Below are positions 19,573-24,672 of a DNA stretch of 64,000 nt, piece after piece. The DNA is from Methylobacterium sp. WSM2598 (GTDB lineage: Bacteria; Pseudomonadota; Alphaproteobacteria; Rhizobiales; Beijerinckiaceae): the NCBI RefSeq assembly GCF_000379105.1, contig NZ_KB900609.1, positions 6,940,125 through 7,004,124 of the forward strand, given 5' to 3'. Below the pieces are notes generated by a model. That model ran no database searches. It saw only the letters and a program-made list of their open reading frames with translations, and had not been told where the DNA came from. Position numbers and translations under genes: made by a program. Every line of letters starts with the position of its first letter. Position 1 is the stretch's first letter.

Positions 19573-19849
19573 GCCGGGCCGGCGGCGCCGCCCGGCCGGG
19601 CTTGCCATCCGTCTCCGGGAAGCAATCGTCCCGTTGAAGGCGGATATCCTGTCGTGCAGCCGAGTTGTCCATCCGTCACGACGCCTCGCGCCGCAGGATG
19701 GCGCCTGGCGATGAAAGCAGAATGGCCGCACATCACGGCTATGCAGAAGAAATTCTGAAGCCCGCAGCGGAGAATATGCATCTCAACCCGATGACGCCGA
19801 TCGGCCCGGTGCATCCCCTGCGCGAGCCGATGTGCGAGAGCCGCGAGCC

Positions 19850-20480
19850 GGACATGAGCGTCGAGGCCGTCCATGCCAGCCCCTCCGGGCGGAACTGCTT
19901 CGCGGACCGCGACCACGACGACTCCATCGGGGTGCCGCCGACGCGCTCTCCGCCGCGGTCCTGATCCTGGCGCCGGACCGGCGCATCGTGTTCGGCAACG
20001 CTCAAGGCGCGGGCCGAGCGCGCGCGGGGGAGCCTGCTCCGCGAGCGGGCGGGACGCCTCGTGGGCGCGACGGCGGACGGGAGGCGGCTCGTGGCCGAGG
20101 TGACCGCCCGGCACGGGAGCAGGGGACGCGACGCGCGCCTCAGCGACGCGACGGGACGGGTCCCGTACGCCTCCCGGGTCGCCCTGGCGAAGGTCGGCGA
20201 GGCGCTCCTGCGCCTCCTGCGCGAGCCGGAGCGGGACTTCGTCACCCCCGCTCGCCTCGGCCGCCACCCTGGTCCGGCTCCCGCCCGGCGAGCTGCGGGT
20301 GCTCGCACACGGATCTCCTGCGCGTCGTGCTCGGCCTGCGGTCGCCCCTCGGGGACGCGTCGTAACCGCCGGATGCGCGACAGGCGAAAGCTGCCCGCAC
20401 GCTGAGTTCGCGCTGCCGATCACGGCGCCCGCGCAACTCTTCAAGACGACGAACTCTCTCCTCCGTTTGGCGGAGGCGCA
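19850..20480 (+). pseudogene. Decayed regulator relic (PAS/LuxR-like)
   Basis: This 1.1-kb stretch between genes has no intact reading frame of convincing composition. Pieces in successive frames read like one protein: DALSAAVLILAPDRRIVFGNA, then RAERARGGSLLRERAGRLV and GATADGRRLVAEVTA, then VRLPPGELRVL, then a tail AQLFKTTNSLLRLAEAQAA ending at a TAA at 20488. The first part resembles the sensor half of PAS-linked LuxR-type regulators, which often read 'PAVLLLDADGRVLHANAAA'. At least three frameshifts are needed. The assignment is tentative. Confidence 0.3.
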
Positions 20481-20718
20481 AGCGGCGTAAATCGACAAGG
20501 ATGCACTCCGAGACGACCCGGGAGCATCATCACTCATGCCGGATGTGGTAGCCATGACTGCATTTCTGCCGATCATCTGCCACGCCGACCGCGTCGTTCA
20601 GGCGGCCTCGCCCGGGGCGAGCGATCTCGCGGATGTCCCCGCCCCCGCCACCCGCGCGGGCGACGCCGACTGATCCACGAAGGCCGGCGGGACGGCCGCC
20701 GAACAGGGGCGTGACGCC

Positions 20719-21627
20719 ATGGACAACATCATCATGCTGTTCGCCTGCCTGATGATCGGGATCATCCTGCAGAAGGCCGGGCGCGTCCCCGACAACGCCC
20801 ACACGGCCCTGAACGCCTTCATCATCCACATCTCGCTGCCGGCGCTGATCCTGTCCCACATCCACTCCGTGCGCATCGACGCGTCCGTGCTCTACGCGAT
20901 CGCCATGCCGTGGATCGTCTTCTTCGCGAGCGTGGTGCTGTTCTGGCTGCTCGGCAGGATGCTGAACTTCAGCAGGAAGACGACGGGCGCGCTCAGCGTC
21001 GTGGCCGGGCTCGGCAACACCTCCTTCATCGGCCTGCCGGTGATCGAGAGCTTCTTCGGCGCGGACAAGATGCAGCTCGGGATCATCATCGATCAACTCG
21101 GGACCTACCTGGTCCTCAGCACGCTCGGGATCCTCGCGGTGTGCTTCTACGCCGAGGGACCATCGCTCACGCACCGCGACATTCTCAAGAGGATCGCGGG
21201 CTTCCCGCCGCTGATCGCGCTCGCGGCCGCCCTCCTCCTGCTGCCCCTCCCCTATCCCGACTGGTTCGCGTCGATCCTGGCGCGGCTCGGCGGCACGCTG
21301 GCTCCCCTGGCGCTCGTCTCCGTCGGATTGCAGCTTCGCGCCGCGGCCCTCTCCGGCAACGCCCTGGCCCTGTGCCTGGGCATCGGCTACAAGCTCCTGC
21401 TCGCCCCCCTGATCATCATGGCCCTGTACATCGGCCTGCTCGGTCTGAGGGGCGTCCCGGTCCAGGTCACGCTGCTCGAATCCGCGATGGCGCCGCAGAT
21501 CGGCGGGTCGATCGTCGCGATCCAGTACGGCCTCGACGCGCGGCTGATCACGCTGCTCGTCGGCATCGGCACCGTGCTGTCCTTCCTGACGCTGCCGCTC
21601 TGGTGGGGCCTGTGCGCCCGGATCTGA
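20719..21627 (+). CDS. AEC-family transporter (auxin efflux carrier type)
   Basis: A 302-residue inner-membrane protein with about ten hydrophobic helices. Family marks are IGIILQKAGRVPDNAHTALNAFIIHISLPALIL at the start (helices 1-2), GLGNTSFIGLPVIESFFG in helix 4, and LESAMAPQIGGSIVAIQYGLD near the end. AEC carriers move small organic acids or amino-acid-like anions; a close bacterial group is the malonate carrier MdcF type. Its codon use is visibly less GC-biased than its neighbours, and it follows the decayed region, so it may have been acquired. The start is the ATG after GGGGCGTGACGCC. Confidence 0.9.
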   Translation: MDNIIMLFACLMIGIILQKAGRVPDNAHTALNAFIIHISLPALILSHIHSVRIDASVLYAIAMPWIVFFASVVLFWLLGRMLNFSRKTTGALSVVAGLGNTSFIGLPVIESFFGADKMQLGIIIDQLGTYLVLSTLGILAVCFYAEGPSLTHRDILKRIAGFPPLIALAAALLLLPLPYPDWFASILARLGGTLAPLALVSVGLQLRAAALSGNALALCLGIGYKLLLAPLIIMALYIGLLGLRGVPVQVTLLESAMAPQIGGSIVAIQYGLDARLITLLVGIGTVLSFLTLPLWWGLCARI

Positions 21628-21743
21628 TCCCCGGCCCGCCCGCTCGGGGCCGCGGTCCCGCCGCGACGGGCGCCCGGGGCCCCGCCGCCCCGTCGAGCCA
21701 CGGCCCCCTGATGCCGGGCGACACGCGACGGCCCGCGACCGGG

Positions 21744-22367
21744 TCAGCCGAACCGGCCGCCTCCCGGCGCCCGCTTCCGGGCGACCACCGCGACGATGTG
21801 CCAGCGCTTCACCGGGCCGTGGATCGACGGGGCGCGCTCGACCTCCTCGCGCCGCCAGACGACCTCGAAGCGCGCGAACAGCCGCGCGATCTCCTCCGCC
21901 GTCCACCCGAGGCAGGCGCCCTCGCGGACCCACTCGTCCCGCATGCCGAAGAAGTGGCCGGCGAACCATCCGTCCGGAGCCAGGGCGTCCTCGATCCCGG
22001 CCCAGACGCGCGGGAAGTGCTCCCGCGCGCAGAACGGCAGGCTGAAGCTGGCATTGACGAGCGCCGCTCCGGCGGGCAGCGCCGCGGCCTCGAACCGCGC
22101 CCGGACGAAGCGGAACCGGGCGGCGTGGCGCGGCTCGACCGCCGCCCGCACGGCCTCCCCGGCGCGCGCGGAGGCGTCGATCGCGACGACGGTCCACCCC
22201 CGGCGCAGCAGGGCGAGGCTGTCCTGACCGGCGCCGCAGCCGAGATCGATCGCGAGCCGCCGCGCGCCCGCCCCGCCGCGGCCCATCCGCCTCAGCGCCT
22301 CGACGAGGGACGCCCGGGGCGGATCGTCGATCGGGGACGCGCCGCGCGCCTGCGCCCGGTCGGTCAC
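21744..22367 (-). CDS. Class I SAM-dependent methyltransferase
   Basis: A 207-residue methyltransferase. RRLAIDLGCGAGQDSLALLRRGW is motif I with the acidic post-I segment VVAIDAS; ALVNASFSLPFC and DGWFAGHFFGMRDEW complete the Rossmann core, like TehB/UbiE-type small-molecule enzymes. The GTG at 22367 (VTDRAQARG) is chosen because homologues begin just before PPRASLVEAL; in-frame ATG codons farther upstream add a Pro/Arg-rich segment with no family support. It is divergent from the RiPP-like precursor gene 370 bases away, so it could be a tailoring enzyme, but shared regulation is not shown. Confidence 0.75.
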   Translation of the reverse strand: MTDRAQARGASPIDDPPRASLVEALRRMGRGGAGARRLAIDLGCGAGQDSLALLRRGWTVVAIDASARAGEAVRAAVEPRHAARFRFVRARFEAAALPAGAALVNASFSLPFCAREHFPRVWAGIEDALAPDGWFAGHFFGMRDEWVREGACLGWTAEEIARLFARFEVVWRREEVERAPSIHGPVKRWHIVAVVARKRAPGGGRFG

Positions 22368-22736
22368 GGCCGGCCGCTCCCCGCCGCGGGCCGGCACAGG
22401 CTCCCCCGCATCAGGAGAGACCGGCCCTCGCGGCGTCCCGGCGCAGACGAGCGCGCCCGACTTGCGCCGAGGCCGGAGCATACGCAACGAGAAGGCCGCG
22501 TTGCGGGAGTCATGCCCAAGTGATACTCTTCGTCTGTACAGTTGCAAGTCCGGCCGGATTGGAGCATCGGCGGGAGTGCGGGCGCATCCCCCGGGAGGGG
22601 AGGCGTCGAGGACTGCCCCGCCGAGGAGGACGCGTCCTGCCGGTCACGGACATGCGCGGTGCACGGCCAGGGCGGGCGCCGCGTGCCCCCGAACGCGGCC
22701 GGACCATCGACCCGACGCGCCACGGAGGAGACCGGC
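22368..22736. promoter_or_regulatory. Spacer between methyltransferase and RiPP-like operon
   Basis: A 369-base region with an AT-richer island at about 22500-22560 (CATGCCCAAGTGATACTCTT, then CTGTACAG, a perfect 8-bp palindrome at 22534-22541, then GTTGCAAG). The promoter of the precursor gene must lie here, but no confident -35/-10 pair was found. The strong ribosome site GGAGGAG is at 22724-22730. Confidence 0.4.
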
Positions 22737-23018
22737 ATGCCGACCCGCGACGACAAGGACGGCGCCCGGCCCGAGGGGAGCGCCCCCGAGCAGGGCGACC
22801 CGTTCGAGGCCGTGGAGGTCGCGGCGCCCTCGGACCCGCAATCCCTGCCCCTGGACGACCTCGATCTGGCGAGCGGCGGCGCCTCCTGCGGGGCCGGCTC
22901 CTGCTCGGCCGACAACACCAAGTGCCGGCGATCCGAGTTCGTCCAGATCACGGACACCAGCAGCCGGTTCAATTCCGGCATTCTCACCACGATCGTGAAG
23001 TTCTTCTCCTTCAGATGA
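22737..23018 (+). CDS. RiPP precursor peptide candidate with double-glycine leader
   Basis: A 93-residue peptide. Residues 1-46 form an acidic, disordered leader (PFEAVEVAAPSDPQ) ending in LPLDDLDLASGG, a typical double-Gly leader end at G47-G48. The putative core (49-93) starts ASCGAGSCSADNTKCRRSE, with Cys51, Cys56 and Cys63 (C-x4-C-x6-C), and ends in a hydrophobic, aromatic segment GILTTIVKFFSFR. There is no Sec signal. The ATG at 22737 has GGAGGAG six bases upstream. Eighteen bases separate it from the recognition-domain protein, and the MNIO gene overlaps the end of that one, so the three are co-transcribed. It is inferred to be the substrate of the MNIO enzyme, with the Cys residues as likely modification sites. 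It has no match that I recognise among methanobactin, bufferin or TglA precursors. Confidence 0.8.
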   Translation: MPTRDDKDGARPEGSAPEQGDPFEAVEVAAPSDPQSLPLDDLDLASGGASCGAGSCSADNTKCRRSEFVQITDTSSRFNSGILTTIVKFFSFR

Positions 23019-23036
23019 GGGGGTGAGATCGCCAGG

Positions 23037-23828
23037 ATGAGCTTGTCTGACATGCAATCCGTGCTGGCGAAACTCTATACCGACGAAATCTATCGGGGTT
23101 TGTTCTTCAAGAATCCGGAAGCCGCGGTGGAGAGCCTGGGCCTGCCGGCGGCCGAGGCCGCGGCGCTGGCGGCGCTGCCCCGCGCGCCCGTGGAGGAGAT
23201 CGCCGGCGAGCTGTTCGGCAAGGCGCTCGACCGCATCCGCAACGCCTACCCGGCGGCCTGCGCCGCGGCGCCGGACCGCGTCGCGCGGGCCTACCGCCGC
23301 TACTACGCGGGCCACCCGTCCCAGGATAGGGCGCAGTCCCTGGCGCATCTCATCGGGTTCGGCAGCAGCCTCGCCCAGGCGGTCGGGGCCGGCGACCCGC
23401 CCTACCTGTTCGACCTCGTCCGGTACGAGCGGCAGCGGCTCTGCACGAAGCGGGGCGCGGAGCCGGCGCGGTCCGCGGGCGACGGCGAACCGGCGCGCGA
23501 GGCCCGGCCCCGCCTGGCGCGCGGGACGACGGTGGAGCGGCACGGCTTCGCGGTCGCGGCGATCGCGGCCGCGCTCGGCCGGGGCGAGGCGGTGGCGCCG
23601 CAGCCCTCGGCCTGCATCCTCGCGGTCTATCGCCGGCGGGAGGACGGCGCGCCCGGCGCGCTCGCGATCAACGCGGCGACGGAGCGCCTGCTCGACCTGT
23701 GCGACGGGCGCACCGACCTCGCCGCCTGCGCGCGGATCCTGGGAGAGGAGCTGCGGCGGGGGGACGTCGCGGACCTCGTGCGCCGGCACGTCTCGCACCT
23801 GGTCCGGCTCGGAGTCCTGCATGCCTGA
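23037..23828 (+). CDS. MNIO partner protein with C-terminal PqqD-like RiPP recognition domain
   Basis: A 263-residue soluble protein. Residues about 1-50 are a small helical segment (MQSVLAKLYTDEIYRGLFFKNPEAAVESLGL). Residues about 55-136 (ALDRIRNAYPAACAAAPDRV, AYRRYYAGHPSQDRAQSLAH, PPYLFDLVRYERQR) recall the N-terminal domain of HvfC/BufC (DUF2063) partners of MNIO enzymes. A linker and a beta-rich stretch follow. Residues about 205-263 (ALAINAATERLLDLCDGRTD... VSHLVRLGVLHA) match the winged-helix pattern of PqqD and other RiPP recognition elements. It probably binds the leader and presents the core to the oxidase. The start is ATG 23037 after GAGGGGGTGAG. Domain calls are by eye. Confidence 0.8.
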   Translation: MSLSDMQSVLAKLYTDEIYRGLFFKNPEAAVESLGLPAAEAAALAALPRAPVEEIAGELFGKALDRIRNAYPAACAAAPDRVARAYRRYYAGHPSQDRAQSLAHLIGFGSSLAQAVGAGDPPYLFDLVRYERQRLCTKRGAEPARSAGDGEPAREARPRLARGTTVERHGFAVAAIAAALGRGEAVAPQPSACILAVYRRREDGAPGALAINAATERLLDLCDGRTDLAACARILGEELRRGDVADLVRRHVSHLVRLGVLHA

Positions 23829-24672
23829 GCGCCCTGACGCCAGCGCCCACCTGGGCGCGGGGATCGGCTACCGGCTCGACCTGCGCGAGGAGATCCTCGG
23901 CGCCGCGGGCCGGGTCGAGGTCGTCGAGGTGATGGCCGACAACTACCTGTTCCGGCCGGAGCGGCGGAACGAACTCGCCGCGCTGCGCGAGCGCCTGCCC
24001 ATCGTCCTGCACGGCCTCGACCTCTCGGTGGGGAGCGCGGAGCGCCCGAACCCGGACTATCTCGGGGAGGTGCGCCGCCTCTGCCGGCTCACGGCGGCGC
24101 CCTACTACAGCGACCACCTCGCGGTGACCCGCGTGCGGGGCGTGAGCCTCGGCCACCTCACGCCGGTCTGGTACGGCCGGTCGAACCTGAGCGCCGCGAT
24201 CGACAACGTGAACGCGGTCCAGGACTGCCTCGGGATCCCGCTGGTCCTCGAGAACATCACCGCGGACCTGACGATCCCCGGGGCCGAGATGACGGAGGGC
24301 GAGTTCTTCCGCGAGCTCGTGCGGGCGACGGGGTGCGGGATGCTCCTCGACGTGACCAACATCGAGGTCAACAGCCTCAACCGCGGCCTGGACCCGGCCG
24401 ACATCCTGCGCTCCTTTCCCCTGGAGAGCGTCGTGCAGGTCCACCTCTCGGGCGGCGTCGAGGCCGGGGGGCGGATGATCGACAGCCACAGCGCGCCGAT
24501 CTCCGAGCGGAGCTGGAGCCTCTACGCGGACCTCCTCCGGCGGGCGGCCGCGCGGGTCGTCATCGTCGAGAGGGACGCGGATTTCGACGACGGGGCGGGG
24601 ATCATGCGGGAGGTGTCGCGCGCCGGGGCGATGCTCGCCGCCGCCCGCGCGGGCGCGCCCGTCAGCCCGTGA
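23821..24672 (+). CDS. DUF692 / MNIO-family multinuclear iron oxidase
   Basis: A 283-residue TIM-barrel enzyme. The family opening GAGIGYRLDLREEIL... VEVVEVMADNYLF is clear. Candidate iron ligands are H64 (IVLHGLDLS), H99 (YYSDHLAV), E144 (LVLENI), D177 and N180 (LLDVTNIEVNS), H208 (VQVHLSGG), D221 and H223 (IDSHSAPI) and E250 (VIVERD), the positions where MbnB-like enzymes bind two or three irons. Such enzymes use O2 to rebuild Cys or other residues of a RiPP core. Its start overlaps the stop of the partner gene by 8 bases, showing translational coupling. The last 11 bases overlap the end of the convergent downstream gene. Confidence 0.93.
   Translation: MPERPDASAHLGAGIGYRLDLREEILGAAGRVEVVEVMADNYLFRPERRNELAALRERLPIVLHGLDLSVGSAERPNPDYLGEVRRLCRLTAAPYYSDHLAVTRVRGVSLGHLTPVWYGRSNLSAAIDNVNAVQDCLGIPLVLENITADLTIPGAEMTEGEFFRELVRATGCGMLLDVTNIEVNSLNRGLDPADILRSFPLESVVQVHLSGGVEAGGRMIDSHSAPISERSWSLYADLLRRAAARVVIVERDADFDDGAGIMREVSRAGAMLAAARAGAPVSP

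Follow-up and report, generated by a model that had tools for sequence, protein, structure and literature searches.

Organization of the operon

The 64,000-nucleotide stretch of Methylobacterium sp. WSM2598 DNA analysed here (hereafter the window) carries, at positions 22737-24672, three genes arranged head to tail on the forward strand. In the list of open reading frames (ORFs), they encode a precursor peptide of 93 residues, a partner protein of 263 residues, and a multinuclear non-heme iron-dependent oxidative enzyme (MNIO) of 283 residues. The three genes probably form a compact pathway for a ribosomally synthesized and post-translationally modified peptide (RiPP). The precursor gene (22737-23018, ATG at 22737 and stop codon at 23016-23018) follows a ribosome binding site read from the sequence, GGAGGA (22724-22729, forward strand), located 7 nt upstream of the ATG. 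The partner gene (23037-23828) starts 18 nt after the precursor stop codon and overlaps the MNIO gene (23821-24672) by 8 bases. The gene order, the positions, and the 8-base overlap given in the first-pass annotation, an earlier reading of this DNA, all agree with the ORFs. Another genome of this species, G575, has intact copies of all three, with one synonymous and three amino-acid differences altogether: one silent and one amino-acid difference in the precursor, none in the partner, and two amino-acid differences in the MNIO.

Precursor peptide

The leader rule of C39 transporters places Leu(-12)-X3-Glu(-8)-Leu(-7) ahead of a double Gly (PMC6363468). The leader end of the precursor, LPLDDLDLASGG, agrees with this rule, having Leu at -12, Asp instead of Glu at -8, Leu at -7, and GG. 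The motif L(-12)x3[DE](-8)L(-7)x4GG is found once in the precursor, at residues 37-48. It appeared in 47 of 200,000 shuffles of the precursor and in one of the 386 ORFs of at least 30 residues in the window, this ORF being the precursor frame itself. The double-Gly leader claimed in the first-pass annotation is thus borne out. The putative leader (residues 1-48; 22737-22880) has a net charge of -9, and the putative core (residues 49-93; 22881-23015), ASCGAGSCSADNTKCRRSEFVQITDTSSRFNSGILTTIVKFFSFR, comprises 45 residues with a charge of +3 and an apolar C-terminus; its tail, FNSGILTTIVKFFSFR, is hydrophobic and basic. The core had been described as Cys-rich, and cysteines are indeed present, but this amounts to just three in 45 residues (C51, C56, and C63), arranged as SCGA-G-SCSA-DNTKC, in which the near-repeats SCGA and SCSA are followed by the third Cys. 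The other residues of the core include D59, N60, D73, N79, and five Phe.

The precursor matched no model of Pfam or NCBIfam to E 10 and none of PHROGs to E 1, and inspection by eye, without a prediction program, revealed no hydrophobic stretch of the kind expected of a Sec signal peptide. The view that the precursor is unfamiliar therefore holds. Among 111 genomes of the genus, only the own genome and G575 gave matches below E 1e-3; 93 of the 111 gave some match at E 1, the best beyond these two being 0.00125. A phmmer search against all ORFs of at least 35 residues in 69 MNIO loci found nothing at E 1, four further genomes (two of Xanthomonas and one each of Legionellales and Fluoribacter) yielded nothing better than E 0.19, and a pattern scan of the contigs in the genome collection, from which the records of the own genome were perhaps excluded, returned 130 pattern stretches and no relative. 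The first-pass annotation had made its reading depend on whether other genomes carry relatives of the precursor next to MNIO genes; strict homologues were found in no genome outside the species, and an analogous peptide, with similarity at the level of chance, was found in Streptomyces, as described below.

MNIO enzyme

The third gene product matches PF05114 with E 3.3e-74 (249.9 bits, cut-off 25) and is a member of the superfamily, as had been claimed from its DUF692/MNIO character. In the alignment it keeps all nine iron ligands of TglH (H71, H107, E151, D184, N187, H216, D229, H231, and E258; PMC10880893), as H64, H99, E144, D177, N180, H208, D221, H223, and E250; therefore, judging from the sequence, the enzyme is expected to be active. 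Five NCBIfam models of MNIOs were matched, all below their cut-offs: BufB (214.7 of 310 bits), HvfB (162.7 of 360), ApyH (114.1 of 400), MbnB (57.6 of 325), and ChrH (45.9 of 600). No match to the MNIO alignment was found in viral contigs. A second MNIO of the same genome consists of the C-terminal half alone (L163:5559-5996; G000:C1 near 5,277,558) and is 55% identical to the MNIO of the operon. No N-terminal half was found in the surrounding 13 kb, and G575 has the same fragment.

Partner protein

The AlphaFold model of the partner (17-row alignment) has a mean predicted local distance difference test score (pLDDT) of 75.7 and a predicted template modelling score (pTM) of 0.67, and is weak at residues 141-160 and from residue 191 onward, with block means of 43-66. 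The model resembles TglI (VIA Z 13.3 over 234 residues; Foldseek E 2.5e-5) and NGO1945 (Z 9.8 over 174 residues; Foldseek E 0.29), and no match to DUF2063 (PF09836) was found by Pfam to E 10. Because the modelled fold is TglI/NGO1945-like and the DUF2063 signature is absent, the partner fits PME-type 2, a group described in PMC12452194.

The C-terminal region (residues 160-263; 23514-23825), which may bind the leader, consists in the model of three strands followed by three helices, as in a RiPP recognition element (RRE). The first-pass annotation had called this end PqqD-like; by sequence the likeness is weak (TIGR03859, E 0.006), and the fold lends it support. The other C-terminal profile matches, namely HvfC (E 3.7e-7, 30.2 of 142 bits), ApyI (E 1.2e-5), and NGO1945_C, were likewise below cut-off.

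The N-terminal domain (residues 1-63; 23037-23225) is a candidate for docking to the MNIO. Its residues 5-59 match NF038399, the 'Os1348 family NHLP clan protein' model (NHLP, nitrile hydratase leader peptide), with E 9.1e-9 and 35.3 bits against a cut-off of 40. A second model, TIGR04509 ('NHLP-related RiPP peptide'), is matched by residues 2-43 with E 1.3e-6 and 28.3 bits, its cut-off being 34. At E 0.01, NF038399 was matched by 12 and TIGR04509 by eight of 17 partners, several of which are close Methylocystis relatives; the remaining five of the 17, and the partner from Streptomyces, did not match NF038399. Structurally, residues 1-63 superpose on crystalline Os1348 (6lk7_C; Z 8.5, 63 of 66 residues, 2.2 Å) and on SonA, a precursor bound to the methyltransferase SonM (Z 5.7, 46 residues). 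The aligner warns that for helical bundles a Z below about 13 may reflect a common arrangement alone. Because the partner profile found nothing significant among PDB chain sequences, the link to Os1348 rests on NCBIfam profiles below cut-off together with the fold. The comparison of the model thus points to a likeness to Os1348, not to membership of its family.

The helical N-terminus of TglI or PesI contacts the MNIO in a crystal structure (PMC10880893) and in an AlphaFold 3 model (PMC13060819), respectively, and the paper on the TglI structure called the domain novel (PMC10880893). Os1348 comes from Pseudomonas sp. Os17. PMC12636437 describes PosA of the same strain, as well as PflA, and related clusters that encode an MNIO-nitroreductase fusion shown to modify PflA; the word 'partner' does not occur in the text of that paper. 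The strain and the family name suggest to us that Os1348 is identical to PosA. The docking domain of the partner and the NHLP leader may accordingly be one domain, used in trans in the former case and in cis in the latter. Among the literature matches listed, no paper named any two of Os1348, 6LK7, TglI, and PosA.

By sequence, the partner was matched at E 0.01 in 14 of 385 genomes of the class, and below 1e-3 in the own genome and G271 (7.9e-7) alone. No plasmid matched it at E 0.01, and it was not found in viral contigs.

Relatives and gene order

The relatives of the MNIO were sought in 69 MNIO loci taken from GTDB genomes. The nearest, with up to 45% identity, belong to TIGR04222-type loci and adjoin Gly/Ser/Cys-rich tails with CGxxC-like stretches; the locus label 'TIGR' was automatic, and for L007, taken as an example, a profile match to TIGR04222 bore it out (96 bits, cut-off 43). 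In a tree of 128 rows, the MNIO of the operon lies in the half that contains all 62 loci whose label records a Gly/Ser/Cys-rich ORF ahead of the MNIO start or overlapping it (support 100/100). The five rows for MNIOs of other genomes in the genus all lie in the other half, which we call bufferin-like after the Cys-repeat peptides upstream in L009 and L010, a name and not a test. Within the genus, an MNIO was found at E 1e-15 in six of the 111 genomes, namely the own genome, G575, and four others. The 128-row tree places the MNIO of the operon as sister to a Xanthomonas/Legionella group with weak support (95/66), and a second tree of 45 chosen rows, to which a Streptomyces row was added and from which L114 was omitted, places it as sister to the Streptomyces MNIO (97/87). 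In the 45-row tree, a grouping of the five partner-first rows together was not rejected (p-AU 0.095, approximately unbiased test). The branches of the MNIOs from the operon and Streptomyces are long (1.03 and 1.72, respectively), and attraction between them is possible.

The position of the partner was examined in 152 MNIO-locus rows, several of which represent the same place, with a profile of 13 partners of this kind; L001, L003, L033, L047, L160, L201, and L202 had been dropped beforehand. The partner followed the MNIO in 76 rows, was not found in 64, which include loci with type 1 partners, and preceded the MNIO in 12. Of these 12, six represent the own locus or the copy in G575, two are one place in Xanthomonas hortorum, and one each comes from X. 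populi, Legionellales, Fluoribacter gormanii, and Streptomyces sp. NBC_01527. A full-length partner ahead of the MNIO is thus found in the operon described here and in five other organisms. When two rows cut by the locus end are set aside, the partners before the MNIO have 258-295 residues, and those after it, with mechanically assigned starts, have 67-368. Sixty-seven of the 76 partners after the MNIO have at most 231 residues; the remaining nine have 245-368, so that shortness in this position is not without exception. The eight TIGR04222-type partners of the latter position in the seed alignment are too short to include the final three helices of the RRE-like domain. A precursor was looked for in the loci of Xanthomonas, Legionellales, and Fluoribacter that have the partner first, and none could be named.

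The closest counterpart in gene order lies on a plasmid of Streptomyces sp. NBC_01527 (NZ_CP109396.1), in which a double-Gly Cys peptide, a partner, and an MNIO follow one another. The peptide, MAPASAVLAEEVEEELLIPVKLDEDDMKVLGGLMPPNCAGCGGTTCVSCNTIPHPH, has 56 residues, with an acidic N-terminus, GG, and a Cys core. The genes after the MNIO are annotated as an FAD/NAD(P)-binding protein, a 2-oxoglutarate (2OG)-Fe(II) oxygenase, and an ABC transporter. Among 72,556 plasmids, this record was the only one with the Streptomyces peptide (E 1) or partner (E 0.01). The comparison of the two precursors gave E 0.053, with no alignment beyond chance. The counterpart supports, without proving, the existence of a small class with the order of double-Gly Cys peptide, RRE partner, and MNIO.

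Comparison with known MNIO systems

The TIGR04222-MNIO-PME type 2 loci, as described in PMC12452194, resemble the operon in their MNIOs, which include its nearest relatives, in the kind of N-terminal domain of the partner, and in a substrate that lacks a Sec signal peptide and has a Gly/Ser/Cys-rich end. Their substrate is, however, a membrane protein, whereas the operon encodes a 93-residue peptide with a double-Gly leader, and the partner in the operon, unlike theirs, precedes the MNIO and has a full RRE-like part. We rejected assignment to this system, since TIGR04222 was matched neither in the three flanking genes scanned nor in the precursor or the partner; the MNIO itself does fall in the half of the 128-row tree that holds loci of this type (100/100).

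The TglHI system, which makes 3-thiaglutamate (pearlin), shares with the operon the MNIO ligands and the two-domain fold of the partner. Unlike in the operon, the target is a Cys that has been appended to the C-terminal end of a scaffold peptide (PMC12452194), and Asn73 of TglH, which orients that Cys (PMC10880893), lies in an insertion that has no counterpart in the MNIO of the operon. The bufferins and oxazolin (captophorins) also have Cys-containing substrates, and BufB is the best NCBIfam match of our MNIO; their gene order is bufABC, in contrast to precursor, partner, and MNIO here. A bufferin/captophorin assignment was rejected on the grounds of the BufB score (214.7 of 310 bits), the lack of a visible Sec signal peptide, and the lack of a DUF2063 (PME-type 1) partner, and a methanobactin assignment on the grounds of the MbnB score (57.6 of 325 bits) and of no MbnC or MbnA match in NCBIfam to E 10. 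The std cluster of Streptomyces thermodiastaticus likewise combines a precursor (StdA), an RRE-containing partner (StdD), and an MNIO (StdE) (PMC13174530). Its target is a carbamoylated Lys, modified in conjunction with YcaO-TfuA, and the available sections of the same paper describe no Cys modification there.

According to the accessible part of PMC12452194, the adjamnio-1, -2, and -7 precursors lack signal peptides, and adjamnio-I and -IV are among the proteins without them; the precursor described here may overlap with one of the adjamnio precursors. Among the matches listed in the literature, no paper joined an MNIO with a 'double-glycine' leader, and PMC12636437, in its available sections, uses 'double-Gly' to say that its precursors lack a typical site.

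Genomic island and export candidates

The operon belongs to an island of approximately 5.05 kb (19594-24647) that also contains an AEC transporter (20719-21627, forward strand) and an S-adenosylmethionine (SAM) methyltransferase (21744-22547, reverse strand) with weak matches to TehB and daptide methyltransferases. The island is absent at the same site in two congeneric genomes, G556 and G537, in which its flanks abut (L194 and L196, respectively); in a third, G108 (L195), the right flank alone was found in the region compared. The island is flanked by an alanine-racemase-like gene; in 16 other loci of the genus, taken with about 1.5 kb to either side of this gene, no precursor, partner, or MNIO was found at E 1e-6. 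No gene was recognised in the leftmost kilobase of the island, at about 19.6-20.7 kb.

Four loci with Peptidase_C39 lie elsewhere in the genome and none in the operon. Two of the four, as judged by eye, have a Cys at the place that we take to be the one expected for C39, and the other two lack a Cys there. One of the two with this Cys, L164:10534-12717 (G000:C1:5787000-5806000), is an NHLP exporter (TIGR03796, 1076 bits, cut-off 853). The surroundings of this exporter form a separate RiPP-like cluster with a protein that looks HlyD-like by eye, a pair of B12 radical SAM-like proteins, whose best matches to TIGR03975 (95 and 107 bits) are below the cut-off of 282, and a 134-residue ORF with a LEAVAGG leader. 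The other, L165:10352-12487 (G000:C1:949000-968000), is a C39 ABC transporter, and a small Cys peptide with the leader end LDLAALKAISGG is encoded about 2.5 kb before it. The corresponding ORF (L165:7683-7847) has 54 residues, or 39 from an inner Met (MTKLDLAALKAISGGTCAPAPCPPPANDCKKDCGNSKCS), with a double Gly and five Cys, and matched no family in NCBIfam.

Proposed pathway and alternatives

We consider that the operon encodes a compact MNIO RiPP pathway in which Cys is probably the site of oxidation and a C39 transporter, acting in trans, probably exports the peptide, and we put the probability of this reading at about 0.6. By analogy with TglHI, the helical N-terminal domain of the partner would bind the MNIO, and its C-terminal RRE would bind the acidic leader. 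The MNIO may then oxidise one or both Cys of the paired SC[GS]A motifs (C51 and C56), giving a heterocycle of the thiooxazole type or a related one. Cleavage after Gly48 and export of the peptide of about 45 residues could be the work of a C39 peptidase ABC transporter whose gene lies elsewhere. The product would most likely bind metal (copper) outside the cell, or else act as an antimicrobial; this is the weakest step of the proposal. The type of pathway is known, and what is new is the combination of a double-Gly leader precursor with a PME-type 2 partner.

Several observations weigh against this proposal. Precursor homologues are confined to the species in these searches, so that conservation of the cysteines cannot be shown, and G575, with four codon differences in total, is too near for a selection test. 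The Streptomyces peptide does not follow the L-12/L-7 rule. In the island, no protease and no transporter besides the AEC carrier were recognised, and no copper gene was recognised among the neighbours by eye (the profile scan covered three neighbours). Scans for promoters, terminators, and inverted repeats yielded no usable regulatory site.

Cys is the likely target of the MNIO but not a certain one, because characterised MNIOs also modify Asp, Asn, Phe, and homocitrulline (PMC12452194, PMC13174530). Another residue of the core, such as an Asp, Asn, or Phe, may therefore be modified, with the cysteines left free or disulfide-bonded. The candidates D59, N60, D73, N79, and the five Phe are at hand, the MNIOs of the Std, Pbs, Pfl, and Pes systems target homocitrulline, Phe, or Asp, that of Apy targets Asp (PMC12452194), and StdA/StdD/StdE likewise use an RRE partner (PMC13174530). 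We nevertheless regard a non-Cys target as unlikely, given that the nearest MNIO relatives stand beside Gly/Ser/Cys-rich tails with CGxxC-like stretches, and that the sole analogous precursor has GG and Cys in common with ours and little else.

Bacteriocins commonly have double-Gly leaders and C39 exporters, and the product could accordingly be a bacteriocin-like antimicrobial whose modified Cys head and hydrophobic, basic tail act on membranes; the core charge of +3 and the apolar C-terminus agree with such a role. On the other hand, no immunity gene was recognised in the island by eye, and the Cys-modifying MNIO products methanobactin, bufferins, fontiphorin, and oxazolin bind copper (PMC12452194, PMC13097082), which makes an antimicrobial product rather doubtful. 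That the 93-residue ORF is not a substrate, because the MNIO-partner pair serves some other protein in trans or because the island is decaying, could be argued from the orphan precursor, the truncated second MNIO, and the left kilobase of the island, where no gene was recognised, but is improbable in view of the good ribosome binding site, the leader motif, the tight spacing, the frames intact in two genomes, and an RRE part that is kept, unlike in the eight aligned TIGR04222-type partners.

Of the new points raised by the operon, the strongest is that the docking domain of the partner resembles the Os1348 leader. We tentatively propose, as an idea somewhat likelier to fail than to hold, that PME-type 2 partners are displaced leaders. 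The MNIO-docking helical domain would be homologous to the NHLP/Os1348 leader, which in systems of the PosA/PflA type is joined in cis to the substrate of an MNIO fusion described as having no partner; here it would be fused to an RRE and act in trans, so that the precursor would shrink to a short double-Gly leader and a core. A class of C39-exported MNIO peptides with split leaders would then begin with the operon and the Streptomyces locus as its first members. If true, the likeness would give a fold identity to the TglI domain that was called novel, and a hint on the origin of MNIO partners. MNIO enzymes catalyse unusual oxidations of ribosomal peptides, and many minor types of their precursors are still to be identified (PMC12452194). 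The operon adds a precursor with a double-Gly leader to an MNIO branch otherwise tied here to membrane proteins with Cys-rich tails and, as a minimal case of three genes, is simple to co-express.

Other MNIO loci

A LanM-like protein is encoded upstream of the partner-MNIO pair in X. hortorum (L151:29-4825; TIGR03897, 203.8 of 304 bits) and in X. populi (L114), where its frame is in pieces, which suggests a lanthipeptide-MNIO hybrid. In Fluoribacter gormanii (L117:3150-8810) and Legionellales (L115:3094-8552), the pair is, as judged by eye, followed by oxygenase-like proteins and preceded by an acetyltransferase-like gene; in the former, an ABC transporter is also seen downstream by eye. The MNIO of L102, from a metagenome-assembled genome titled Actinomycetota, groups with those of Planctomycetota; the title may be wrong, because its phylum group in the genome collection includes G992, from which the Chthonomonas locus L101 comes.

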